DNA of 11,528 nt, from the NCBI GenBank assembly GCA_017302355.1, contig JAFLDQ010000107.1, positions 1-11,528 on the forward strand, written 5' to 3'. A program made the position numbers and the translations under genes. Each line of letters begins with the position of its first letter. Position 1 is the stretch's first letter. The notes under the pieces are model-generated. The model did not search any database, was not told the DNA's origin, and worked only from the letters and a program-made list of their open reading frames with translations. This stretch comes from Dechloromonas sp. (GTDB lineage: Bacteria; Pseudomonadota; Gammaproteobacteria; Burkholderiales; Rhodocyclaceae). Positions 1 to 11,528 of the stretch are shown piece by piece.

Positions 1-1095
1 GTCAATGCCGATATTGCGAGCCGAACCGATCAGGTCCTTCAGCGCTTCCTTCGCCAGATCCATCGCGATCGGCCGTGCGTGAAATGAAGCGTACGCCATC
101 ACCTTTTTCAAGGCGCCTTCAAGTTCCCGCACATTCGACCGCAAATGCTTGGCAACGAAAAAAGCCACCTCGTCGTCAAGCTGCAGGCCTTCCGCTTCCG
201 CCTTGCGTTTCAGGATGGCGACCCGCATTTCCAGTTCAGGCGGCTCGATCTGGACGGTCAGACCCCAGTCGAACCGCGTCACCAGGCGGTCGTCGAGGCC
301 GTTGATGTCCTTCGGATAGGTGTCGCAGGTTATGATGATCTGCTTGCGAGATTCGATCAACGCATTGAAAAGAAAAAAGAATTCTTCCTGAGAACGATTC
401 TTTCCGTTGAAGAACTGGACATCGTCAAGGAGCAGGACATCGAGCGAGCGATAAGTTCGCTTGAAACTGTCGAACGACTTTTGCTGATAGGCCCGCACGA
501 CGTCCGAGTAGTAGTCCTCGGCGTGTACGTAACGCACGATCTTTTCCGACGTCTCGGCAAGAATCCTGTTGCCCATGGCGTGAATCATGTGCGTCTTGCC
601 GAGTCCGGCGCCGCCATAGATGAATAGCGGATTGTAGGCGCCGCCGGGATTGTTGGCGACCTGGACGGCGGCGGCTCGCGCGAGATCGTTTGCCTTGCCG
701 ACGACCAGATTGTCGAAGGTGAACGAGTCGAAGAGCCGCGACTTTTCGTACACACTGTCGCGCTTGCCGTTTCTTTCGGCTGCGGGTGCGGGGATGCTTG
801 CTGCTTCCGACGTGAGTTGTGGCGTGCTCCCGCGAGAGTTGGCCGGCCTCGCGCCGTCGATGACAAGGGCGATGGTGACCGGATGCGCGAAGAAAGCGCG
901 GCTGTAGTCCTCGATCCGTGCCAGGTAACGGTCACGTACCCATTTCATGATGAAACCGTTGGGCGCGATGAGCCGCAGTCCTTCCCGGAGACTGTCCTCG
1001 CCTTCCAGCCGCAGCGGCTTGATCCAGGTGTTGAATTGCTGCACCGGCAATTCCTGCTCGAAACGCTGCAGACAGGATTCCCAAAAACTGCCCAT
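1..1095 (-). CDS. dnaA: Chromosomal replication initiator protein DnaA (3' end outside window)
   Basis: DnaA is the AAA+ ATPase that binds DnaA boxes, opens oriC and loads the replicative helicase. The 365 codons present cover domain I (about 1-80, the N-terminal interaction domain), a short linker (about 81-120) and AAA+ domain III. Walker A is GGAGLGKT at 161-168, Walker B is LLLDDVQFF at 221-229, and RELEGAL lies near 323-329. The frame leaves the window at RNIGID, where DNA-binding domain IV begins, so roughly the last 100 residues of a usual 450-480 are missing. The ATG at 1095 is preceded by a strong purine-rich ribosome site (GGGGAGGGG, 1107-1115). The gene is divergent from rpmH, the usual betaproteobacterial origin arrangement. 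Its G+C is visibly lower than in the right half of the window. Identity is certain; only the truncation by the window edge limits the call. Confidence 0.97.
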   Translation of the reverse strand, partial: MGSFWESCLQRFEQELPVQQFNTWIKPLRLEGEDSLREGLRLIAPNGFIMKWVRDRYLARIEDYSRAFFAHPVTIALVIDGARPANSRGSTPQLTSEAASIPAPAAERNGKRDSVYEKSRLFDSFTFDNLVVGKANDLARAAAVQVANNPGGAYNPLFIYGGAGLGKTHMIHAMGNRILAETSEKIVRYVHAEDYYSDVVRAYQQKSFDSFKRTYRSLDVLLLDDVQFFNGKNRSQEEFFFLFNALIESRKQIIITCDTYPKDINGLDDRLVTRFDWGLTVQIEPPELEMRVAILKRKAEAEGLQLDDEVAFFVAKHLRSNVRELEGALKKVMAYASFHARPIAMDLAKEALKDLIGSARNIGID

Positions 1096-1215
1096 CGCCA
1101 ACGATACCCCTCCCCGCCGGCCTGGTAGCAGCCCCTGGCGGTAGACCCAAGAAATTGATTTGTGTAATGAATCGCAAGAACCCCGGGTGCAACGCCGATA
1201 GCCCGGGAAGCAGGA

Positions 1216-1244
1216 ATTCTACCCGTGCCGGCGCAAGTTATCCA
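1216..1244 (-). promoter_or_regulatory. Candidate dnaA promoter
   Basis: Read on the minus strand, TAGAAT (1216-1221) matches five of six bases of the -10 consensus. TGGATA (1239-1244) matches four of six of the -35, with a 17-bp spacer. Transcription would start about 115 bp upstream of the dnaA ATG. The -35 lies inside the consensus DnaA box. The promoter is inferred from motifs alone. Confidence 0.4.
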
Positions 1245-1246
1245 CA
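1238..1246 (+). promoter_or_regulatory. Consensus DnaA box in the dnaA-rpmH spacer
   Basis: TTATCCACA is an exact match to the high-affinity DnaA box consensus. It lies in the 236-bp spacer between divergent dnaA and rpmH, where many proteobacteria have oriC elements or DnaA autoregulatory sites. I found no second perfect box by eye, so this spacer alone is not shown to be the origin. The box overlaps the candidate -35 of the dnaA promoter, which would fit autorepression. Confidence 0.8.
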
Positions 1247-1266
1247 GCTTGCGGAAATAATTGATC

Positions 1267-1296
1267 TTGACAACATGTCGCGAAGCGCGGTGTAAT
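1267..1296 (+). promoter_or_regulatory. rpmH operon promoter
   Basis: TTGACA (1267-1272, a perfect -35) and TGTAAT (1291-1296, five of six of the -10) are separated by 18 bp and sit 35 bp ahead of the rpmH start codon. This is the best sigma-70 promoter in the window. It should drive rpmH and the genes after it. An A/T-rich stretch and an AAGGGA ribosome site (1319-1324) follow. Confidence 0.75.
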
Positions 1297-1331
1297 TCAA
1301 TGTTTTTCTTAGCACATCAAGGGATTTTCAA

Positions 1332-1466
1332 ATGAAACGCACGTATCAACCGTCGGTCGTGCGCCGCAAGCGCACCCATGGCTTCCTGGTCCGCATGCGC
1401 ACCAAGGGTGGCCGTGCAGTCATAGCTGCCCGCCGCGCCAAGGGTCGCAAACGTCTCGGCGTCTAG
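1332..1466 (+). CDS. rpmH: Large ribosomal subunit protein bL34
   Basis: The gene encodes the 44-residue bL34 protein of the 50S subunit. It begins [19 protein letters not shown] and ends [11 protein letters not shown], which is essentially the family signature over the full usual length of 44-46 residues. About a third of the residues are Arg or Lys, as expected for an rRNA-binding protein. An AAGGGA ribosome site lies 7 nt before the ATG, and a strong sigma-70 promoter lies upstream. It is the first gene of rpmH-rnpA-yidD-yidC. Its whole length is also open in the rnpA reading frame (see findings). Confidence 0.97.
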
Positions 1467-1513
1467 ACCGGACGCTTGGCGGAGCGGCCAGAACCTTCGC
1501 CAGATGTCATCGC

Positions 1514-1855
1514 CTGACAAGAACGGATGAGTTTTCATCCGTTTTTGGTTTCCGGCGGGCGATCCGGGGAAAATTGCTGACCCTCCACTACCAGCCGCGC
1601 CCCGCTGACGCGAGTGAAGCAAGGCTCGGCGTTGTCGTCGGCAAAAAAGTGCTTGCCAGAGCGGTCGACCGCAACCGCTGCAAGCGCATCCTGCGCGAGC
1701 GGTTTCGCTGTCTGCGCGCCGACCTCCCGGCGGTCGACCTGGTCGCCCGCCTGGCGGTGAAGCCGCTGCGCCTTGACCGGAAGATGCTGGCGGACGACTT
1801 CGTTTCCCTGCTGGAGAAACTGGCCGCAGGTCAGCCCAAGGTCAACGGCCGATGA
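1514..1855 (+). CDS. rnpA: Ribonuclease P protein component (start codon unresolved)
   Basis: RnpA is the small basic protein that binds the RNase P RNA and helps it mature tRNA 5' ends. The signature [19 protein letters not shown] is the conserved RNR motif helix, preceded by [10 protein letters not shown] in the central beta region. The family's N-terminal stretch, [16 protein letters not shown], is encoded from about 1511, so the TTG at 1574 that starts the shorter ORF would remove conserved sequence. No ATG, GTG or TTG occurs in this frame upstream of 1574 back to a stop at 1310. I set the start at CTG 1514, which gives 113 residues (family usually 110-125). Homology seems to continue a few codons further, to FARCHR (from 1496). 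A non-standard start, a longer overlapping frame or a single-base error upstream are all possible. The stop overlaps the yidD start as ATGA. The gene identity is firm; the 5' end is not. Confidence 0.85.
1522..1546 (+). terminator. Terminator-like hairpin inside the start of rnpA
   Basis: AACGGATGA (1522-1530) and TCATCCGTT (1535-1543) form a perfect 9-bp stem with a 4-base loop, and the T run at 1542-1546 follows at once. That is the shape of an intrinsic terminator, 56 bp after the rpmH stop. It lies within the codons for the conserved RnpA N-terminus (T-D-E-F-S-S-V-F). An attenuator between rpmH and rnpA is known in Escherichia coli and keeps RnpA far below bL34. Function here is inferred from structure. 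Confidence 0.6.
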
Positions 1856-2061
1856 AGCGCCTGCTGGTGGCCATGATCCGTGCCTATCAGTACGCGTTCA
1901 GCCCGTTTCTGGGACGCAGTTGCCGTTATTATCCGTCCTGTTCGGAATATGCAGTGGAAGCGGTAGAGAAGTACGGTGCCATCAAGGGTGGCTGGCTCGG
2001 CGTCAAGCGCATCGGCCGCTGTCATCCCTGGCATCCCGGCGGGTACGATCCGGTACCCTGA
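1852..2061 (+). CDS. yidD: Membrane protein insertion efficiency factor YidD
   Basis: YidD is a small membrane-associated protein that helps YidC-dependent insertion of inner-membrane proteins. The 69 residues carry the family core: an amphipathic N-terminus, [22 protein letters not shown] with its conserved cysteines, [15 protein letters not shown], and a terminal HPGGYDPVP. The length is typical (about 70-85). The ATG overlaps the rnpA stop by four bases (ATGA), indicating translational coupling, and yidC follows after 30 bp. This rnpA-yidD-yidC order is conserved across proteobacteria. No unusual features. Confidence 0.95.
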
Positions 2062-2091
2062 TTTGCGAATGCTTGATTACGTAGGCTGTTC

Positions 2092-3465
2092 ATGGACACT
2101 CGTCGCCTGATCCTGGTTCTGATCTTCACTTTCTCGAGCTTCATGCTCTGGGAAAGCTGGCAGAAGTACAACCAGCCCAAACCCGCCGCCAGTGTCGCCG
2201 CAGGAACTCCGGCGGGCGGCGCCGCGCCCCGGCCCAGCGCCCTCTTGCATGCCGGCGCCGCCCCGTCGCCAGCGCCGGGCGCAGCGGGAGCGTCGGCGGC
2301 GACGCCCGGTGAAACCTTTACGGTAGCCACCGATCTGGTGAATGCCACGGTTTCGGCGCAGGGCGGCGACATCGTCAAGCTCGAGTTGCTCAAGTACAAG
2401 GAGCATCAGGACAAGGACAAGACCTTCGACCTGTTCGATGTCAAGCACAAGTATCAGGCCCAGAGCGGCCTGATCGGCGAGGGTCTCCCCAATCACCGTA
2501 CGAAGTTTCGCCTGGTCGATGGACCGCTGAAACTGGCCGAAGGCGCCGATGAACTCAAGGTGCGCCTTGAAGCGAAAGCCGGGAATGGCGCCGACGTCGC
2601 CAAGATACTGACCTTCCGGCGCGGCTCCTACCTGGTCGACGTGGCGTGGGAAATCAGTAACGCCGGCGACAAGCCCCTGACCACGCATGCCTACTACCAG
2701 TTACAGCGCGACAACGTGGCCCCCGAAGGCGAGACCATGATGGTGTCGACCTTCACCGGCCCGGCCGTCTATACCGATGCCGACAAATACCAGAAGATCA
2801 CCTTCGACGACATCGCGGCCGGCAAGGCGAAGTTCGCCAAGACGGCGGAGAACGGCTGGTTGGCCATGGTCCAGCACTACTTCGTATCCGCCTTCGTGCC
2901 CGCGGACAAGACCCCGCGCGAGTACTACATGCGCAAGGTCGAGGGAGAGAACGCCTATCAGGCCGGGGTCATCGTGCCGGTCCCGGAAATCGCCCCGGGG
3001 GCCAAGGGCGGCGCTGTGGCCGGGCGCCGCGCTGCGCCGCGACGACGGCGCGGCGCAGGGTCTGCTGCACCGCATCTTCCCGCGCATGCCGACGCGCGGA
3101 TCGGTGCATCTGGTGCTGCGCGGCACGAACTTCCAGATCAAGGTGTGGGAAGCGCTGCTGCGCACCGACTTCGGCAGGCTGACGTCCTACCATCAACTGG
3201 CGCAGCGCCTCGGCGCCCCCGGGGCACAGCGCGCGGTCGGCGGCGCGCTCGCGGCCAATACCCTCGCCTACCTGATCCCCTGCCACCGCGTCATCCGCGA
3301 GAGCGGCGACATCGGCAGCTACCGCTGGGGCAGCGAGCGCAAGCTCGCCCTGATCGGCTGGGAGGCCGCGGGCCTGGATGCCAGCCCGGATGTCGAGCGC
3401 GAGCGCAGTGCAGCGGCAGCGACCGCAGCGGCGATCAGCCCTTGAGCGCCGGATTCAGCGTGTAG
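2092..3465 (+). CDS. yidC: Membrane protein insertase YidC, N-terminal part only; C-terminus replaced by out-of-frame sequence
   Basis: YidC inserts and folds inner-membrane proteins. The first transmembrane segment is at about 6-24 and is followed by a Pro/Ala-rich linker (about 29-75). The periplasmic P1 beta domain then runs to about residue 306, ending in YMRKVEGENAYQAGVIVPVP and EIAPGAKG. Where the five-helix insertase domain should start, the translation turns into low-complexity Arg/Ala/Pro sequence to a stop at 3463-3465. That tail (about 150 residues) is the wrong frame of an ada/ogt gene. A normal proteobacterial YidC is about 540-560 residues, so all catalytic membrane helices are missing. 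Because yidC is generally essential, this ORF is probably the left half of a chimeric junction rather than a working gene. The start is ATG 2092 with a weak AGG site 6 nt upstream. The identity of the N-terminal half is certain. Confidence 0.85.
   Translation: MDTRRLILVLIFTFSSFMLWESWQKYNQPKPAASVAAGTPAGGAAPRPSALLHAGAAPSPAPGAAGASAATPGETFTVATDLVNATVSAQGGDIVKLELLKYKEHQDKDKTFDLFDVKHKYQAQSGLIGEGLPNHRTKFRLVDGPLKLAEGADELKVRLEAKAGNGADVAKILTFRRGSYLVDVAWEISNAGDKPLTTHAYYQLQRDNVAPEGETMMVSTFTGPAVYTDADKYQKITFDDIAAGKAKFAKTAENGWLAMVQHYFVSAFVPADKTPREYYMRKVEGENAYQAGVIVPVPEIAPGAKGGAVAGRRAAPRRRRGAGSAAPHLPAHADARIGASGAARHELPDQGVGSAAAHRLRQADVLPSTGAAPRRPRGTARGRRRARGQYPRLPDPLPPRHPRERRHRQLPLGQRAQARPDRLGGRGPGCQPGCRARAQCSGSDRSGDQPLSAGFSV
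3004..3020. other. Junction between the origin locus and an unrelated locus
   Basis: YidC-like residues end at about APGAKG (to about 3009) in one frame. Ada-like residues (ALWPGAALRRDDGAAQ) begin at about 3011 in a different frame. The break falls in a G/C-rich run (2996-3035) where short shared sequence could join unrelated DNA. Hand-counted G+C is 182/300 before (2401-2700) and 216/300 after (3121-3420). Confidence 0.75.
3011..3445 (+). pseudogene. Methylated-DNA-protein-cysteine methyltransferase, C-terminal fragment (Ada/Ogt type)
   Basis: This frame encodes the alkyl-acceptor domain that removes O6-alkyl groups from guanine by irreversible transfer to a cysteine. Visible motifs are GTNFQIKVWEALL, the winged-helix DNA-binding region (TSYHQLAQRLG..., RAVGGALAANTLAYLIP) and the active-site PCHRV, with the acceptor Cys at 3281-3283. 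SYRWGSERKLALIGWE closes the domain. The style matches proteins that fuse an AraC-type regulator to a methyltransferase, but everything N-terminal to ALWPGAALRRDDG is missing and no start codon belongs to it. An internal ATG at 3086 would give 119 residues holding only the DNA-binding/acceptor domain. The 3' end overlaps the convergent PEBP gene by 11 bp. It is probably the right half of the junction: intact in its source genome and broken here. Confidence 0.85.
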
Positions 3466-4064
3466 GTGCCGGTGAGCCTGGCCTCGGCCAGCACATGGCC
3501 GGCAAGCGCCGCGCGCACGTCGGCTCCGGTGAAACGGCCTTGCACCGCGCAGCGCGGCACGTCGAGCGCGTACAGCGTGAACACGTAGTGGTGAACGATC
3601 TCGTCGTTCCACGGCGGGCACGGGCCGTCGTAGCCGTGATAGTCGCCCTTCATCGCCTCGTCGCCGGCGAACCAGGCGGTGTAGTCATTCACGCCATGGC
3701 GCGCGCCGAGCGCGGCCTCCGGTCCGGGTTTGCCGCCCGGCGTGACTTCGGACGAAAAATGACCGGCGGCGATCTCGCACAGGTCCGCCGGCAGGTCGAC
3801 GACGATCCAGTGGAAGAAATCGACGCGCGGCAGGCTGGCCGGGACGGTACGGCCTTCCTGGTTGACGTCGTCGCCCTTGCTGGGCACGTCGGGATCGTGA
3901 CAGATGAGCGCGAAGGACTTGGTGCCGGCGGGCACGTCCGACCACGACAGCTGCGGGTTGAGGTTCTTCCCCAGGCAGACGTGGCCCGCGTCGGCCGGAA
4001 TGCAGAAGGCGAACTCGCCCGGAATGCGGGCGCCGTCATTGAAGCTCTGGCTGCTCAGTTTCAT
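3435..4064 (-). CDS. YbhB/YbcL-type phosphatidylethanolamine-binding (PEBP) family protein
   Basis: The 209-residue protein has the bacterial PEBP fold signatures in order: a ligand-pocket loop HDPDVP (56-61), HW (85-86), GPCPP (147-151) and HHYVFTLYALD (158-168). These are the conserved anion-binding positions of the family of Raf-kinase-inhibitor-like proteins. The bacterial role is poorly defined, and no substrate can be read from sequence. No signal peptide is visible, so it is likely cytosolic. The ATG at 4064 is chosen because AAGGAG (4073-4078) lies 8 nt upstream and homology starts at MKLSSQSF; a longer frame to 4241 only crosses into sppA. It follows sppA by 25 bp and is likely the last gene of that unit. 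Length is slightly above the usual 150-200 residues, with a loop insertion around 100-145. Confidence 0.9.
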   Translation of the reverse strand: MKLSSQSFNDGARIPGEFAFCIPADAGHVCLGKNLNPQLSWSDVPAGTKSFALICHDPDVPSKGDDVNQEGRTVPASLPRVDFFHWIVVDLPADLCEIAAGHFSSEVTPGGKPGPEAALGARHGVNDYTAWFAGDEAMKGDYHGYDGPCPPWNDEIVHHYVFTLYALDVPRCAVQGRFTGADVRAALAGHVLAEARLTGTYTLNPALKG

Positions 4065-4089
4065 GCCTCGGTCTCCTTCGTTCGTGTCA

Positions 4090-5928
4090 TCAGGGTGCCT
4101 CGCACAGGCAATGCACGTACCGGTGTTGCGGATCGTTCCAGCGCAGCAGCTCGCGCCCGCTGCGTTGCAGGTCGTCGAGCACTGTCGCCAATGGCGCCGC
4201 CGCCACGGCGGGGCCGGCGAGCAGGCCGGCGCTGCCGGCAAGGCCGATCAGGCGGCGCATCAGGCGCTGCTCGATGGATTCGATCGCCTCCGGCCAGATC
4301 ACCGCGTAGTGCGTCAGGCCGGCGCGCTGCGCGGTGGCGGCAAGCGCTGCGTCCAGGCCGCCGAGCTTGTCCACCAGGCCGAGCCCGGCCGCGGCCTGCC
4401 CGGTCCACACGCGGCCGCGGGCGACCTTGTCGACGTCGGCGGCCGGCATGCGACGCGCCTGCGCCACGGTGTCGAGGAAACGCCGGTAGCCATGCTCGAT
4501 GCCGAGCTGCATCGCCTCGGCGGCGGCAGGGTCGAGCGGCCGGCGCGGATCGAAGGCGCCGGCAAACGGCGCGGTGGCCACGCCGTCGACGCTGATGCCC
4601 AGGCGCTTGAGCGGTTCGGTCAGTTCCGGGAACAGCGCGAAGATGCCGATCGAGCCGGTCAGCGTGGCCGGCGCGGCCCAGATCTCGTCGGCGCCGGCGG
4701 CGATCCAGTAGCCGCCCGATGCGGCGACCGAGCTCATCGACGCCACCACCGGTTTGCCGGCCTGGCGGGTGAGTTCGAGTTCGCGCCGGATCAGCTCGGA
4801 GGCGAAGGCGCTGCCGCCGGGGCTGTCGACGCGCAGCAGCACCGCCTTCACCGTGTCGTCCTCGCGCGCCGCGCGGATCATCTGCGCGTAGGTGTCGCCG
4901 GCCACCACGCCGGCCGCCTCTTCGCCGTCGACGATCGTGCCCTGGGCGACGATCACCGCGATCTTGTCACTCGCCGCCGGACGCGCGCTGCGCACCACGT
5001 CGAGATAGGCGTCGGCCTCGATGTGGCGGAAGTCCTTGCCGTCGGCATCGATTCCGACGCGCTCGGCCAGCCGTGCCCGCCACTGGTCGCGCGTGCTGAG
5101 CTGGTCCACCAGGCCGGCGTTGCGTGCCGCCAGCGCCGCGTCACCGTTGGCGGCCGCGAGGATGTCGCGATAGCCATTGACGTAGGCATCCAGCGCACCC
5201 GGCGCCAGCTTGCGCGCGGCGCTGACGTCGTCGCGCAGCTGGGTCCACAGGCCGTCGAGCAGATCGCGCGAGGAGGCGCGGTCCTCGTCGGACATGTCGT
5301 TGCGGATGAAAGGCTCGGCGAAGGACTTGTACTCGCCGACGCGGAACACATGCACCTTGACGCCCAGCTTGTCGAGCGCGTCCTTGAAGTACATGCCGTA
5401 GCGCGCGAGGCCGCGCAGCAGCACGAAACCGTCGGGCGACAGGTGCACCTCGTCGGCGACCGAAGCCAGGTAGTACTGCGCCTGGTCGAAGTGGTCGCCG
5501 CGCGCCAGCACCGGCTTGCCGGAGGCCTTGAAGGCGGCGATCGCCTCGCGCAGCTCGGCGAGCTTGGACAGCCCGCCCGACTGCAGGCGATCGGTGTCGA
5601 TCACCAGCGCGCCGATGCGGTCGTCGTTGCGCGCGGCGCGGATCGCCTCGAGCATGTCGGCCAGCACCGCGCGCCCGCCCGGCACGCCGCCCGCACGCAA
5701 CAGCGCCAGCGGCTCGTCGAGCACCGCCTGTTCGACGATGGAGCCGGTCGGACGCAGCACCAGCGCTGCGCCCTGCGGCACCGTCGGCGCCGGGTGCAGG
5801 AACAGCGCGACGAGGATGCCGATGCCCAGCAGCAGCAACAGGTAGAAGAAGCCGCGCGCGACGAAGTCGAGCGTCCGGCCGATGAAGCGCAGCAAGCCGA
5901 ACACGAAGCGGAACAGACCCCGGATCAC
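4090..5928 (-). CDS. sppA: Signal peptide peptidase SppA, 67-kDa type
   Basis: SppA is an inner-membrane serine protease (family S49, Ser/Lys dyad) that degrades cleaved signal peptides. The 612 residues match the long, tandem-domain type of Escherichia coli (618). A single N-terminal transmembrane helix lies at about 26-45. The catalytic Lys is in FRVGEYKSFAEPF (Lys201), in the N-terminal repeat. The catalytic Ser is in VAASGGYWIA (Ser404), in the C-terminal repeat, preceded by LLRVDSPGGSAFASELIRR. The start is GTG 5928, with GGGAG 8 nt upstream; no in-frame ATG fits better, because the ATG at 5979 lies inside trmB. It begins 13 bp after the trmB stop. Both active-site residues are present, so it should be active. 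Confidence 0.95.
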   Translation of the reverse strand: MIRGLFRFVFGLLRFIGRTLDFVARGFFYLLLLLGIGILVALFLHPAPTVPQGAALVLRPTGSIVEQAVLDEPLALLRAGGVPGGRAVLADMLEAIRAARNDDRIGALVIDTDRLQSGGLSKLAELREAIAAFKASGKPVLARGDHFDQAQYYLASVADEVHLSPDGFVLLRGLARYGMYFKDALDKLGVKVHVFRVGEYKSFAEPFIRNDMSDEDRASSRDLLDGLWTQLRDDVSAARKLAPGALDAYVNGYRDILAAANGDAALAARNAGLVDQLSTRDQWRARLAERVGIDADGKDFRHIEADAYLDVVRSARPAASDKIAVIVAQGTIVDGEEAAGVVAGDTYAQMIRAAREDDTVKAVLLRVDSPGGSAFASELIRRELELTRQAGKPVVASMSSVAASGGYWIAAGADEIWAAPATLTGSIGIFALFPELTEPLKRLGISVDGVATAPFAGAFDPRRPLDPAAAEAMQLGIEHGYRRFLDTVAQARRMPAADVDKVARGRVWTGQAAAGLGLVDKLGGLDAALAATAQRAGLTHYAVIWPEAIESIEQRLMRRLIGLAGSAGLLAGPAVAAAPLATVLDDLQRSGRELLRWNDPQHRYVHCLCEAP

Positions 5929-5941
5929 TGATTGATCTCCC

Positions 5942-6688
5942 TCATGCGACGCGACGGAACACCAGGTCCCACACGCCATGGCCGAGCTTGATGCCGCGGT
6001 TCTCGAACTTGGTCAGCGGCCGGTAGTCGGGGCGCGGCGCGAAGCCGTCGGCAGTGTTCTGCAGCGCGGGCTCGGCGGAGATCACCTCAAGCATCCAGTG
6101 CGCGTAGTCCTCCCAGTCGGTGGCGCAGTGCAGGTAGCCGCCGGGCGCGAGCTTGCTCGCCACCAGCGCGACGAATTCGGGCTGCACGATGCGGCGCTTG
6201 AAGTGGCGCTTCTTGCGCCACGGGTCGGGGAAGAACAGATGCACGCCGGCGAGTGCGCCGTCGGCGATCATGTCGCGCATCACCTCGACGGCGTCGTGCT
6301 GCATGATGCGCAGGTTGGTGAGCCCGCCTTCGGCGATCAGCTTGCACAGCGCGCCGACGCCGGGCGTATGCACCTCGATACCGAGGAAGTCGTGGTCGGG
6401 CATCGCCGCGGCGATCTTCGCGGTGGTTTCGCCCATGCCGAAGCCGATCTCGAGGATCTTCGGCGCCTTGCGGCCGAACGCGGCATCCAGGTCGAGCGGC
6501 GCCACGCGGTAGTCGATGCCGATCTTCGGCAGCATGTCGTCGAGGTAGCGATGCTGCGCTTCGGACATGCGGCCCTGGCGCAGCACGAAGCTGCGGATGC
6601 TGCGGCTGGAGAAGCGATGCTCGGGGCTGTCGCGACCGATGATCTCGACGCCGGCCACCGGCTCCTGCCTGTCTTGCACGTCGCTCAT
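5942..6688 (-). CDS. trmB: tRNA (guanine-N7-)-methyltransferase
   Basis: TrmB uses S-adenosylmethionine to make m7G46 in the variable loop of tRNAs. The 248 residues are full length. The SAM-binding motif is EIGFGMG (80-86) followed by GIEVHTPG (103-110). The family's tRNA-contacting motif [15 protein letters not shown] lies at 152-166, then ATDWEDYA (189-196) and the C-terminal [10 protein letters not shown] and LGHGVWDL. The ATG overlaps the thiG stop by four bases, so it is probably coupled to thiG. An acidic, poorly conserved N-terminal extension (about 1-30) is common in the family. No missing key residue was seen. Confidence 0.96.
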
Positions 6689-7470
6689 GAACCGATCAGC
6701 CCCTGCGTCGGCGAGCTAGGGTCGGCCGAATAGAACTTGCGCGGCATGCGCCCGGCAAGGAAGGCCTCGCGGCCGGCCTCGACCGCCTTCTTCATCGCGC
6801 TCGCCATCAGCACCGGCTTGCCGGCGGCGGCGATCGCGGTGTTCATCAGCACGCCGTCGCAGCCCAGCTCCATCGCAATGGCAGCGTCCGACGCGGTGCC
6901 CACGCCGGCATCGACCAGCACCGGCACTTTCGCGTTATCGATGATCAGGCGCAGGTTCCACGGGTTGAGGATGCCCATGCCGGAGCCGATCAGCGAGGCG
7001 AGCGGCATCACCGCGACGCAACCGATCTCTTCGAGCATCTTCGCCTGGATGGGGTCGTCGGCGCAGTAGACCATGACGTCGAAGCCGTCCTTCACCAGCG
7101 TCTCGGCCGCCTTCAGCGTCTCGGGCATGTTGGGGAACAGACTCTTCGGGTCGCCCAGCACCTCGAGCTTCACCAGCGCATGGCCGTCCAACAGCTCGCG
7201 CGCCAGGCGCAGCGTGCGCACCGCATCGTCGGCGGTGTAGCAGCCGGCGGTGTTGGGCAGGATGGTGAATTTCTCCGGCGGCAGCGCGTCGAGCAGGTTG
7301 GGCTCGCCCGGGTTCTGGCCGATGTTGGTGCGGCGGATGGCGACGGTGACGATCTCGGCACCGCTGGCGTCGATCGCCTCGCGCGTTTCGGCGAAGTCCT
7401 TGTACTTGCCGGTGCCGACGAGCAGTCGCGAGTTATAGGACTTGCCGGCGATGACGAGGGGGTCGTTCAT
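6685..7470 (-). CDS. thiG: Thiazole synthase
   Basis: ThiG condenses 1-deoxyxylulose 5-phosphate, dehydroglycine and the ThiS thiocarboxylate into the thiazole phosphate of thiamine. The 261-residue TIM barrel contains the Schiff-base Lys in LVKLEVLGD (Lys101), TVAIRR (42-47), LPNTAGC (71-77) and the phosphate-binding region [22 protein letters not shown] placed the start at ATG 7470 ([10 protein letters not shown]), where homology begins and the length matches the family (about 255-265). An in-frame ATG at 7515 adds 15 non-conserved residues and remains possible, since neither start has a strong ribosome site. It follows thiS after 95 bp that contain a palindrome. Its stop overlaps trmB. Confidence 0.95.
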
Positions 7471-7531
7471 GGTGGGGACCTGGAAAAGAAAGTTCTGACT
7501 TGTGGGCACGGACAATTCGCGGCGGGGAACC

Positions 7532-7559
7532 CGCCTCCCTCCCCTTCAAGGGGGAGGCG
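7532..7559. repeat. G/C-rich palindromic element between thiS and thiG
   Basis: CGCCTCCCTCCCCTT (7532-7546) is followed one base later by AAGGGGGAGGCG (7548-7559). The arms are complementary apart from a 3-nt bulge and give a strong hairpin on either strand. It has no following T run, so it is not a classic intrinsic terminator. Palindromes of this CCTCCCC/GGGGAGG type are frequent intergenic repeats in high-G+C proteobacteria. It could tune thiG relative to thiS by mRNA processing or stability. Confidence 0.6.
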
Positions 7560-7565
7560 CCGGAT

Positions 7566-7769
7566 CTATCCGCCACCCACCGCAACGACGATTTCGAGCC
7601 TGTCGCCGTCGGCAAGTTGCACCTCGGCATGGCGCGCCTTGGGCACGATCTCGCCGTTGCGCTCGACCGCGAGGCGCTTGCCGGCGAGGCCGCGCGCCTC
7701 GAGCAGCGCGCGCACGGTGAGACCGGATTGCAGGGATTCGGACTGGCCGTTGAGGGTGACCTGGATCAT
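7566..7769 (-). CDS. thiS: Sulfur carrier protein ThiS
   Basis: ThiS is a ubiquitin-like small protein whose C-terminal glycine is adenylated (by ThiF or MoeB-type enzymes) and converted to a thiocarboxylate, the sulfur donor for ThiG. The 67 residues begin MIQVTLNGQ, contain the beta-grasp pattern with [10 protein letters not shown] in the middle, and end EIVVAVGGG, supplying the essential terminal Gly-Gly. Length is typical (about 65-70). It is the first gene of the minus-strand unit and is divergent from metX. No thi-box (TPP riboswitch) sequence is visible in its upstream region, and the ribosome site is weak. Confidence 0.93.
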
Positions 7770-7825
7770 GGCGATGCGAAGCCGCAGCAGCAGACGGAAG
7801 GCTGAAATCTTAACATGCGCCGGGT

Positions 7826-7854
7826 TTGACTTTTCCCGGGCACGGCGCTACTTT
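7826..7854 (+). promoter_or_regulatory. Candidate metX promoter
   Basis: TTGACT (7826-7831, five of six of the -35) and TACTTT (7849-7854, three of six of the -10) are separated by 17 bp. Transcription would start at about 7861, directly ahead of the SAM-II riboswitch, which begins at about 7862. The position supports the call more than the -10 match does. Confidence 0.5.
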
Positions 7855-7861
7855 CCAGCCA

Positions 7862-7920
7862 TAGCGCCGATTTGAACCAACAGCTTGCGGGCGCTCAATA
7901 AATCCGGCTAAAGCGAGGGC
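7862..7920 (+). promoter_or_regulatory. SAM-II (SAM-alpha) riboswitch upstream of metX
   Basis: This is an RNA pseudoknot that binds S-adenosylmethionine and switches off methionine synthesis. P1 pairs AGCGCC (7863-7868) with GGCGCT (7890-7895). The conserved loop strings follow the family consensus: GATTTGAACC (7869-7878), GCTTGC (7883-7888), AATAAAT after P1 (7898-7904) and GCTAAA (7907-7912). A candidate second helix joins GCTT (7883-7886) to AAGC (7911-7914), with CC (7877-7878) facing GGG (7917-7919), as in an H-type pseudoknot. It sits between a candidate promoter and metX, the expected target, with an intrinsic terminator right after it. The call is from recalled consensus, not a covariance-model search. 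Confidence 0.85.
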
Positions 7921-7921
7921 G

Positions 7922-7960
7922 ACCCAGTCCGCGTTTATAGCCGGCTGGGTTTTTCGTTTT
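7922..7960 (+). terminator. Intrinsic terminator in the metX leader (riboswitch expression platform)
   Basis: ACCCAG (7922-7927) pairs perfectly with CTGGGT (7945-7950), with possible extra CCG/CGG pairing inside the loop. T5 (7950-7954) follows, then CG and T4 (7957-7960). The hairpin starts 2 nt after the SAM-II element and the T run ends 3 nt before the metX ATG. With ligand bound, the pseudoknot could favour termination. I could not trace a clear antiterminator by eye, so the coupling is inferred from layout. Confidence 0.75.
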
Positions 7961-7963
7961 CAG

Positions 7964-9100
7964 ATGGCGATCATGATCCAACCTCAATCCGTCGGCATCG
8001 TCGTGCCGCAGAAGGCGCGCTTCACCGAGCCGCTGCCACTGCGCAGCGGCGGCACGCTGGACGACTACGAGCTGGTGTACGAGACCTACGGCACGCTCAA
8101 CGCGACGCGCAGCAACGCGGTGCTGGTGTGCCACGCGCTGTCGGGCTCGCACCATGTCGCCGGCACCTACGCCGGCGACGCGGGCAGCACCGGCTGGTGG
8201 GACAACCTCGTCGGCCCGGGCAAGCCGCTCGACACGCGCAAGTTCTTCGTCATCGGCGTCAACAATCTTGGCAGCTGCTACGGTTCGTCCGGTCCCAGCA
8301 CGGTGAATCCGGCCACCGGCAAGCTGTGGGGGGCGGATTTTCCCTTCGTCACCGTCGAGGACTGGGTCGAATCCCAGGCACGGCTGGCCGACCGCCTCGG
8401 CATCGAGCGCTTCGCCGCGGTGATCGGCGGCAGCCTGGGCGGCATGCAGGCACTGTCGTGGACGCTGCAGTACCCGGAGCGCGTCGGCCATGCCGCGGTG
8501 ATCGCCTCGGCGCCCAAGCTCACTGCGCAGAACATCGCCTTCAACGAGGTGGCGCGCCAGGCCATCCTCACCGACCCCGATTTCCACGGCGGGCACTATT
8601 ACGAGCATGGCGTGGTGCCGGCGCGCGGCCTCAAGCTGGCGCGCATGGTGGGCCACATCACCTACCTCTCCGATGACGCGATGGCGGAGAAGTTCGGCCG
8701 CAGCCTGCGCCACGGCAAGGCGGTGTACAGCTACGACGTCGAGTTCGAGATCGAGTCCTACCTGCGCTACCAGGGCGACAAGTTCGCCGGCTTCTTCGAT
8801 GCCAACACCTATCTGCTGACGACGAAGGCACTGGATTACTACGACCCGGCATTCGAGCACGGCGGCAACCTGAACGCGGCGCTGGCGCGCGCCACCGCGA
8901 ACTTCCTGGTGGTGTCGTTTTCCACCGATTGGCGTTTCGCCCCGGAGCGTTCGCGCGAGATCGTGTATGCGCTGCTGCACAACCGGCGCAACGTCAGCTA
9001 CGCGGAGATCGACAGCGCCGCCGGCCACGACTCCTTCCTGCTCGACGATGCGCGCTACCACGCGCTCCTCGGCGCCTGGTTCGACCGCATCGAGGTTTGA
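7964..9100 (+). CDS. metX: Homoserine O-acyltransferase (acetyl or succinyl)
   Basis: MetX, an alpha/beta hydrolase, acylates L-homoserine from an acyl-CoA, the first committed step of methionine synthesis. The 378 residues include the oxyanion region [11 protein letters not shown] (57-67) and [17 protein letters not shown] (100-116). The nucleophile elbow [11 protein letters not shown] holds Ser157, the catalytic Asp is Asp322 in [10 protein letters not shown], and His355 is in AAGHDSFLL. All three triad residues are present and length is standard. Many proteobacterial MetX proteins use succinyl-CoA, and I cannot decide the donor from sequence. The start is ATG 7964; ATG 7973 is an alternative. 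Neither has a Shine-Dalgarno site, because the terminator U tract occupies that position. Control by the upstream SAM-II element and terminator is strongly suggested. metW follows after 83 bp. Confidence 0.95.
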
Positions 9101-9108
9101 AATGTTAC

Positions 9109-9148
9109 GACCCCCACGCTCACTGCGTTCGCTGCCCCCCACGGGGGC
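9109..9148. repeat. Betaproteobacterial-type intergenic palindrome between metX and metW
   Basis: The spacer contains GACCCCCACGCTCACTGCG followed by TTCGCTGCCCCCCACGGGGGC. It ends in a perfect 6-bp stem, GCCCCC (9134-9139) with GGGGGC (9143-9148), around a CAC loop. From general knowledge, this CCCCCACGCTCACT..TTCGCTGCCCCCC..GGGGGC string resembles a dispersed intergenic element common in Comamonadaceae and Rhodocyclales genomes. No T run follows. It separates metX from metW, which otherwise form one unit. Confidence 0.65.
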
Positions 9149-9183
9149 GTCAGTACTTTTGAGACGGCTCGGCACATACTGAA

Positions 9184-9774
9184 ATGACCTCCTACCGTTA
9201 CGACTACGAAGTGATCACGCAGTGGATCGAGCCAGGCGAGAAGGTGCTCGACCTGGGCTGCGGCGACGGTGACTTGCTGAAGCACCTGATGCAGGTGCGC
9301 CAGGTGCAGGGCTACGGGGTCGAGAACGACCCCGACAAGTTGCTGGCGAGCGTGAGGAGCGGGGTCAACGTGATCCAGATGGATCTGGAGAAGGGCCTCG
9401 TCGGTCTCGAGGACGGCTTCTTCGATCACGTCATCATGAGCCTGTCGCTGCAGGCGATGCAGAACACGCAGGGCATCCTGCGCGAGATGTTGCGCGTGGG
9501 CCGCGAGGCGGTGGTGAGCTTCCCCAACTTCGGCTACTGGCGCCACCGCCAGAGCATCCTCAACGGCCGCATGCCGGTGTCGGAGAGCCTGCCGCACCAG
9601 TGGTACAACACGCCCAACGTGCGCTTCTTCACCATCGCCGACTTCGACGCCCTGTGCGAGATGAACGGCATCGCGGTGCACGAGCGCCTGGCCTTCGACG
9701 AGGGCAAGCTGGTGCTGGAGGAGCCGAACTTTCTCGCCAGCGTGGCGGTGTATCGGCTGGGACGCATCAGCTGA
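9184..9774 (+). CDS. metW: Methionine biosynthesis protein MetW (class I methyltransferase-like)
   Basis: MetW is a partner of MetX in many proteobacteria and is needed for methionine synthesis in some; its biochemical role is less settled. The 196 residues match the family length. The fold is SAM-dependent methyltransferase-like: VLDLGCGDGDLL (21-32), GVENDP (45-50), then MSLSLQAMQN (near 89-98) and the MetW-specific FPNFGYWRHRQSILNGRMP. PHQWYNTPNVRFFT follows, where related O-methyltransferases have substrate-facing residues. The start is ATG 9184, with no strong ribosome site. It is co-directional with metX across a palindromic spacer, so it is probably on the same SAM-regulated transcript. 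Confidence 0.95.
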   Translation: MTSYRYDYEVITQWIEPGEKVLDLGCGDGDLLKHLMQVRQVQGYGVENDPDKLLASVRSGVNVIQMDLEKGLVGLEDGFFDHVIMSLSLQAMQNTQGILREMLRVGREAVVSFPNFGYWRHRQSILNGRMPVSESLPHQWYNTPNVRFFTIADFDALCEMNGIAVHERLAFDEGKLVLEEPNFLASVAVYRLGRIS

Positions 9775-9868
9775 TTCACTCACGGCGGCTCGTCGTCGCG
9801 CATGCCCGGGCGTCGCTGCGCCTATAGTGAATCGTGAGATGTAATCGCACGCCTCACGGCTCAAGGAG
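9773..9868 (+). promoter_or_regulatory. Leader of the membrane-protein gene: inverted repeats, -10-like box and ribosome site
   Basis: GATTCACT (9773-9780, overlapping the metW stop) and AGTGAATC (9826-9833) are perfect inverted repeats 45 bp apart. CGTGAG (9833-9838) and CTCACG (9853-9858) form a second pair. TATAGT (9823-9828) matches five of six of the -10 consensus, but no convincing -35 lies 16-18 bp upstream. AAGGAG (9863-9868) is a strong ribosome site 6 nt before ATG 9875. A separate promoter or operator is inferred. Confidence 0.4.
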
Positions 9869-9874
9869 CCCTTC

Positions 9875-11528
9875 ATGGCCGACGCGAGCGGCGCAACCCT
9901 GATCACCACCGGCATGCTGCCCTTCGTCGTGCTGCTGAGCGCAGTGCTGACGGTGCCGGTGTCGGTGGCGCTGCTGGCGCTGTACCGGCGGGCAGTGCTG
10001 CGCTCGATGGCGGCGGCCGGCTCGGCCGCGGCACGGGAGCCTGTTCGCCCCAGTCCCCGCGTACCGCCGCCGGCGGCCGAGCTGCAGTTGCAGGCGGTGT
10101 CGCCGGAAGCGCGTGCCTCGACGCCGGCGCTCGCCGCGGCCGGGCACTCGCTGCGAAAGGCGGTTGCGGTGTATGTGGGCGCCGGCCTCGTGTATGCGCT
10201 GGTCCTCGGCGGCACATGGATGCTCCTCGCGCGCGACAGCGGCTTTCCGCTGTTGCGTTTCCTGTGGCTGTTGTCGTGCTACGCGTGGCCCACGGTGCTG
10301 GCCGTCGGTCTGATCGCGGCGGTCACGCGGCGCCAGCGGCTGCAGTTGGGCGGACTCTATTTTTCACTGCTGCTGGCGCTCGCCGTCGCCGGGGTGGCGC
10401 GCAACGCCGAGCTCAGCCTCGGCCAGCTGGCAGGATTCTGGCTGCTCACCAACGCGCCGGCTACCGTGCTGCTGCTCGCCTTCCTGCAGCGCCGGGTGCG
10501 TGCAGTGGGGCCGCTGATCCTGGCCTTCATGGTGGTGGCGATCACCGGCTCGCAGCTTGCCGTCAGCCTTGTGAGCCGCAGCGACGCCGCGGTCGGCGCG
10601 GCGGTGGGGGCGGGCGGAGCGTTCGGGCTGGGCGGCACCGGCACCTTCTTCGCCATCATGGCGCTGGGGGCGGTGATCGCCGCGATCGCCGGCTGGAAGT
10701 GGCTGCAATGGCTGGGACGCCGTCACCGCGAGCGCCGCACCAGCGACCAGGCGCTGACCCTGGACGCGATGTGGCTGCTGTTCGGCGTGGTGCAGACGAT
10801 CGGCTTCGCCTTCGAGGGCATTTTGTGGGTGCTTGCGGGCCTCGTTGCCTTCGCCGCCTACAAGCTGGCGGCACGGCTGGGTTTCGCGCTTGCCGGCCTG
10901 GGCCGTGCGGCGGGGAAGGAGCCGTCGTTGCTACTGCTGCGGGTGTTCGCCCTCGGGACGCGCAGCGAACGGCTGTTCGATGCGCTGACCAAGCACTGGC
11001 TGCGCGCCGGAGACATCAGCCTGATCGCCGGTCCCGACCTCGCCACGACGACGGTGGAGCCGCACGAATTCCTCGATTTCGTCGGTGGCCACCTGTCACG
11101 CCAGTTCGTGCGCGACGAGGCCGATCTGGCGCGGCGCTTCGCCGAGCGGGCGCTGGGCCCCGACCCGGACGGCCGCCACAGGGTGAATGAGTTCTTCTGC
11201 CACGCCGACACCTGGCAGCCAGCGATGCGTCGCCTGGCGGCGAGCGCCGACGCGGTGCTGATGGATCTGCGCAGTTTTTCGCCGGCCAATCAGGGCTGCC
11301 AGTACGAGCTGCAGCAGTTGCTCGACATCGTGCCGCTGGCGCGCACGGTGTTCCTGATCGACCCCACGACCGACCGCGCCTTTTTCGAGGCGACGCTTCG
11401 CCGCCTGTGGCAGATGGTTGCCGCCGAGAGCCCGAACCGCAGCTTGCCGAGTGCCCGCGTGGCCGTGCTGACCGCCGACGGCGGCGGCGAATTCGAGCTC
11501 GCGCCTTTGCTCGCCCTGCTCCACACCG
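9875..11528 (+). CDS. Multi-pass membrane protein with a cytosolic C-terminal domain of unknown type (3' end outside window)
   Basis: I do not recognise the family. The 551 codons present begin at ATG 9875 behind AAGGAG. One hydrophobic segment (about 14-37) is followed by an Ala/Pro-rich linker (about 45-92). About seven more membrane segments follow (near 96-118, 127-150, 159-175, 186-204, 211-233, 253-278 and 299-332). After a basic turn comes a soluble region from about 349: SLLLLRVFALGTRSERLFDAL, then ISLIAGPDLATTT (381-393), a charged helix with RFAERALGPDPDGRHRVNEF (420s-440) and SADAVLMDLRSFSPANQG (457-474). It then has an acidic/Gln-rich helix and TVFLIDPTTD (491-500). The alternating strand-helix pattern with an acidic residue after strands (VLMDLR, VFLID) suggests a Rossmann-like or TIR/SLOG-like alpha/beta fold, but that is a guess. 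It is one large frame; the antisense and +1 ORFs here are shadows. The protein continues past 11528. Confidence 0.85.
   Translation, partial: MADASGATLITTGMLPFVVLLSAVLTVPVSVALLALYRRAVLRSMAAAGSAAAREPVRPSPRVPPPAAELQLQAVSPEARASTPALAAAGHSLRKAVAVYVGAGLVYALVLGGTWMLLARDSGFPLLRFLWLLSCYAWPTVLAVGLIAAVTRRQRLQLGGLYFSLLLALAVAGVARNAELSLGQLAGFWLLTNAPATVLLLAFLQRRVRAVGPLILAFMVVAITGSQLAVSLVSRSDAAVGAAVGAGGAFGLGGTGTFFAIMALGAVIAAIAGWKWLQWLGRRHRERRTSDQALTLDAMWLLFGVVQTIGFAFEGILWVLAGLVAFAAYKLAARLGFALAGLGRAAGKEPSLLLLRVFALGTRSERLFDALTKHWLRAGDISLIAGPDLATTTVEPHEFLDFVGGHLSRQFVRDEADLARRFAERALGPDPDGRHRVNEFFCHADTWQPAMRRLAASADAVLMDLRSFSPANQGCQYELQQLLDIVPLARTVFLIDPTTDRAFFEATLRRLWQMVAAESPNRSLPSARVAVLTADGGGEFELAPLLALLHT

Follow-up and report, generated by a model that had tools for sequence, protein, structure and literature searches.

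A junction between yidC and an ada-type gene in a bacterial contig, very probably a chimera of two genomes of one family

The window, meaning the whole stretch of 11,528 bases that was analysed, falls into two parts that meet inside two genes. Features are listed below by coordinates and strand, and the terms left-hand and right-hand genome refer to the sources to which the two parts are assigned.

1..1101, minus strand: 5' part of dnaA (367 aa inside the window, cut by its edge), with Pfam Bac_DnaA and DnaA_N; left-hand genome
1332..1466, plus strand: what we take, from its translation, to be rpmH (ribosomal protein L34), intact, with a translation whose first 18 residues were noted and which closes with a stop; left-hand genome
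1574..1855, plus strand: rnpA (RNase P protein) from the first TTG, with Pfam Ribonuclease_P, profile 28-108 of 109; left-hand genome
1852..2061, plus strand: presumably yidD, intact, 69 aa, named from its translation and from its position between rnpA and yidC; left-hand genome
2092..3006, plus strand: yidC, first 305 codons, without the 3' half; left-hand genome
3007..3015: junction, with an ambiguous exact breakpoint and up to 9 bases possibly common to both parents
3008..3445, plus strand: ada/ogt-type gene, last 145 of 299 codons and the stop, without the AraC-type helix-turn-helix half, with PF01035; right-hand genome
1..3006: left-hand genome part, dnaA-rpmH-rnpA-yidD-yidC' of a Dechloromonas/Azonexus relative, from DNA alignments to the loci L031, L033 and L032
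3007..11528: right-hand genome part, identical to G001:C53:64852-73373 save for 2 bases, without gaps

Beyond the ada piece, the gene order is YbhB/PEBP (minus), sppA (minus), trmB (minus), thiG (minus), an ORF that we take to be thiS-like from reading its translation only (minus), metX (plus), metW (plus) and an apparent membrane protein (plus). The last of these, at 9875-11527 after metW, is a 551-aa Ala- and Leu-rich product, open at the window end, for which no Pfam or NCBIfam match was found at E 0.001. At the other end of the window, the frame of rnpA is open from 1440 to 1855, and its conserved N-terminus, of which 20 residues were noted, lies upstream of the first in-frame ATG, GTG or TTG, the TTG at 1574. 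An open frame with no start ATG beside the N-terminus is likewise present in the three relatives L031, L032 and L033; the layout therefore gives no sign of damage, and a rare start codon common to the lineage is a likelier explanation than an error.

YidC is normally essential, and the window contains its first 305 codons. In the ORF at 2092-3465 (457 aa), the Pfam search matched only YidC_periplas, at residues 76-306 (profile 2-241 of 283), and did not find the 60KD_IMP/Oxa1 insertase domain, while the NCBIfam yidC_nterm match ends at residue 305 (profile 311 of 363). The first-pass annotation, made from the letters of the sequence, had placed the end of YidC homology at about residue 306, before the insertase domain; this is borne out by the profiles, which stop at 305-306, and by protein agreement to residue 308, after which the tail of the fused ORF is ada sequence read out of frame. 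The closest protein in a large protein collection, P0001, is an intact YidC of 551 aa from a 3815-base ENA contig and stands for 16 clustered sequences. It is identical to the yidC piece of the window at 303 of 305 residues, still matches it up to residue 308 and beyond that point reads on as a normal YidC including the insertase domain; the second-best protein of the collection is 83% identical. Among 86 YidC loci fetched from relatives, some of which are the same record twice, YidC extends for more than 200 aa in 84 of the 84 that have more than 1200 bases downstream. Compared with the YidC/Oxa1 insertases, codons 1-305 of the window are thus ordinary YidC, and the insertase domain is best read as missing for no other reason than that the contig departs from the gene. 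A tblastn search of the window at E 0.01 detected neither the C-terminal half of YidC nor MnmE, in agreement with the earlier statement that the yidC-mnmE continuation is missing. The same result led us to reject a frameshift in yidC or its simple truncation.

The methyltransferase lies one frame off yidC. The ORF at 2777-3445 matches the methyltransferase DNA-binding domain PF01035 over profile positions 1-80 of 81 (E 4e-27), and PF01035 stands alone, no AraC-type helix-turn-helix having been found with it in the window. A truncated methyltransferase in another frame close to the yidC break had already been noticed in the first reading, and it is recovered here, with its identity to the nearest genome searched (G001; 4.1 Mb, 99% complete, 1% contaminated) beginning at 3007, where codon 154 of the 299 in ada has its third base. 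In G001 the gene is whole (L009:6392-7291, 299 aa) and encodes both HTH_18 (PF12833, AraC-type helix-turn-helix) and PF01035. A single ada DNA alignment of at least 780 bases crosses the break point in 16 of the 29 genus members, G001 included, and the remaining 13 genomes gave shorter ada pieces or short matches. The window thus shares with Ada-type bifunctional regulators/O6-methylguanine-DNA methyltransferases (AraC helix-turn-helix plus Ogt) a methyltransferase DNA-binding domain identical to that of G001, but differs from them in being without the helix-turn-helix half, and here too the best reading is that this reflects nothing more than the point, mid-way in the gene, at which the contig picks it up.

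The relatives of the two sides are different. Positions 1-3006 align to Dechloromonas sp. SSD3 (L031, CP059264.1), the best named genome, in one gapped alignment at 86.4% DNA identity, and the SSD3 proteins are 94% (DnaA) and 81% (YidC) identical to those of the window. One gapped alignment was likewise obtained with L033 (over 1-3004, 79.1%) and with L032 (over 1-3006, 77.5%). When positions 1-3020 were compared with 200 relatives, the best two, G090 (76%) and G041 (74%), cover the left part throughout and stop at 3006 and 3008, respectively; among the matches listed, a few weaker ones extend to 3010 and 3015 and none beyond. Positions 3007-11528 align to G001 as a single gap-free block in which 2 of the 8522 bases differ (99.98% identity), and in the 60 bases to the left of 3007 the window and G001 are unrelated. 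A comparison of the best relatives of the two sides had been suggested from the outset, and it separates them into Dechloromonas on the left and G001 on the right. Both source bacteria appear to belong to one family, since G090, a best match of the left part, is listed in the family of G001; the placement of both parts rests on sequence identities.

G001 carries its own version of the left-hand genes. Some 28 kb away from ada, the contig that matches the right part also carries dnaA, mnmE (449 aa) and a yidC that is complete, with 562 aa and both domains; the two matches of G001 to the window, the right part and the oriC region, lie on opposite strands. The left part of the window aligns to this oriC region in pieces only (74%, 65%, and 66 bases at 82%), and the DnaA and YidC of the window are 58% and 52% identical in amino acids to the G001 proteins. 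With the rest of the window 99.98% identical to G001, proteins so divergent indicate that the left side is not a rearranged allele of G001.

The break lies at 3007, although any position in 3007-3015 is possible, given the bases that an intact YidC relative could share. Protein agreement with P0001 to codon 308 (base 3015), taken together with identity to G001 from 3007, means that the parents may share about 2-9 bases. That bound would hold in so far as the left-hand parent resembles P0001, a close but not identical relative of it (2 differences in 305); in the loci of the 86 relatives, DNA agreement past 3006 amounts to 0-6 bases. The join itself was searched for in several collections. Of 395 sampled genomes of the family, none contained the 30-base word that spans it, even with as many as 3 mismatches allowed, and when the DNA of 2850-3470 was compared with the 29 genus genomes, the shorter side of 3007 measured at most 7 bases among the alignments listed. 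In a plasmid collection, the 18 records returned for the query 2400-3600 had identities of 60-80% and coverage of no more than 22%, and none ran across the join. A fused protein like that of the window was not found either: a search with residues 270-457 gave 9 proteins among 7987 scored candidates, all with both YidC domains, and three of these (P0002, P0005 and P0006) cover 87% of the query at an overall identity of only 34-35%. Some of the collections may omit the genomes nearest to the window, and absence of the join is taken as supporting rather than decisive.

Composition also changes at the join. The G+C content is 1814/3006 (60.3%) on the left and 5856/8522 (68.7%) on the right, and the hand counts given in the first-pass annotation, 182/300 at 2401-2700 and 216/300 at 3121-3420, proved exact. 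The tetranucleotide correlation between 1-3006 and 3007-11528 is 0.72, below each of 17 controls (0.768-0.885), for which overlapping three-kilobase pieces of G001 outside the counterpart of the right part were each compared with that counterpart (9149 bases); the G001 counterpart of the left segment gives 0.78 with the right part of the window. The two parts therefore differ by this measure, which had likewise been proposed for comparing them, and the signal is modest. It is also not specific and separates the parts weakly: the right part also correlates with seven Dechloromonas-type loci at 0.60-0.84, reaching at least 0.80 in 4 of 7. Values for the left part against Dechloromonas-type loci (0.85-0.88) are inflated because these loci contain orthologous genes, and only the comparison with the G001 pieces was used as tetranucleotide evidence.

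Judged from the sequence, the window is very probably a chimeric contig. Positions 1-3006 would come from a Dechloromonas/Azonexus-type bacterium absent among the genomes searched, and 3007-11528 from a strain of the species of G001, or of one very near it, in a different genus of the same family. Either the assembly or a library fragment that was itself chimeric would have fused the middle of yidC of the first to the middle of ada of the second in a GC-rich stretch, so that the join would have been made in the laboratory or the computer and not in a cell. No gene truncation would be needed in either organism, both genes being whole in their own relatives. Usual assembly words are longer than about 9 bases, and since the bases shared at the join (about 9 at most) fall short of them, a library molecule that was already chimeric, or a join through a short overlap, appears likelier than a collision in the assembly graph. 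The location of ada also counts against a chimera: the gene lies near oriC in some congeners, at about 9-31 kb in G009, G006, G004, G001 and G002 and at about 104 kb in G007, and the two loci are accordingly not random partners. A chimeric contig of two genomes had been named as the likeliest explanation in the first-pass annotation, and this judgement is strengthened by the finding that the gene broken in each half is whole in that half's own relative and by the failure to find the join in the genomes searched. For the GUNC authors, a chimeric contig consists of fragments from several sources mis-joined in assembly, and misassemblies are relatively rare compared with mis-binning (PMC8201837). 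The window resembles such an inter-genome misassembly in its two sources, with different best relatives and composition, and in a mid-gene break on both sides; no point of difference was found.

The best surviving alternative, which we nevertheless regard as very improbable, is a living strain of the G001 species in which a foreign dnaA-to-yidC' fragment from a Dechloromonas relative was inserted or recombined into ada, with the strain's own yidC elsewhere. The intact yidC of G001 would render a truncated second copy harmless, the few bases common to both sides of the join would also suit illegitimate recombination, and the left-hand genes are open. That last point cuts both ways, as the left piece is without the decay that a stranded copy might accumulate (the dnaA part, rpmH, yidD and yidC' are open, and rnpA is as in three relatives). 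Such a strain would carry two copies of dnaA and a knocked-out ada, and a second dnaA copy in a genome is unusual. No mobile-element gene was found among the ORFs scanned, by domain-family searches only, and the same join was not seen in the 29 genus genomes or the 395 sampled family genomes.

Far less credible still is a rearrangement by the organism of its own oriC region, in which native yidC was broken and joined to native ada. The earlier reading had offered a rearrangement close to oriC, plus another copy of yidC elsewhere, and the part of it that stands is the complete yidC of G001, about 28 kb from ada, a gene that is near oriC in some congeners. The other part is already contradicted by the allele identities, the YidC of the window being 52% identical to that of G001 against 303/305 to P0001, and its DnaA 58%; an inversion would also be required, because the G001 matches are on opposite strands. 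The ground for rejecting a native rearrangement was that the yidC and dnaA alleles differ from those of the right-hand genome. A real join with functional chimeric ORFs, either a 457-aa YidC N-terminus with an out-of-frame tail or a 222-aa headless methyltransferase, has a similarly negligible chance of being correct, for although both frames are open through the join, beyond residue 308 the tail consists of ada sequence in another frame, long antisense or off-frame ORFs are common in this G+C-rich window (52 ORFs of at least 80 aa), and no fused relative was found among the 7987 scored candidates.

Under the preferred reading of a chimeric contig, the break in yidC most likely reflects no biological loss. 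A new gene, or the real loss of an essential gene, was rejected, as the window looks like an assembly error. What follows is a matter of quality control rather than of biology. Annotated as it stands, this contig would show an essential gene cut short, a DNA-repair gene without its first half and an apparent linkage of yidC with ada; the dnaA and oriC region of one organism would be credited to another. A foreign part with dnaA and yidC could, moreover, upset the marker-gene placement of the genome under which it is filed.

Some minor observations concern G001. Its whole ada gene scores below the NCBIfam Ada cut-off (156 vs 345 bits), and beyond the AraC-type helix-turn-helix and PF01035 no other Ada domain was detected at E 0.001. 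From reading their translations, we take the ORFs that precede ada to be a PP2C phosphatase, rph (RNase PH), rdgB and hemW. The sole two mismatches between G001 and the window, at 4211 and 4217, fall 6 bases from each other close to the sppA 3' end.
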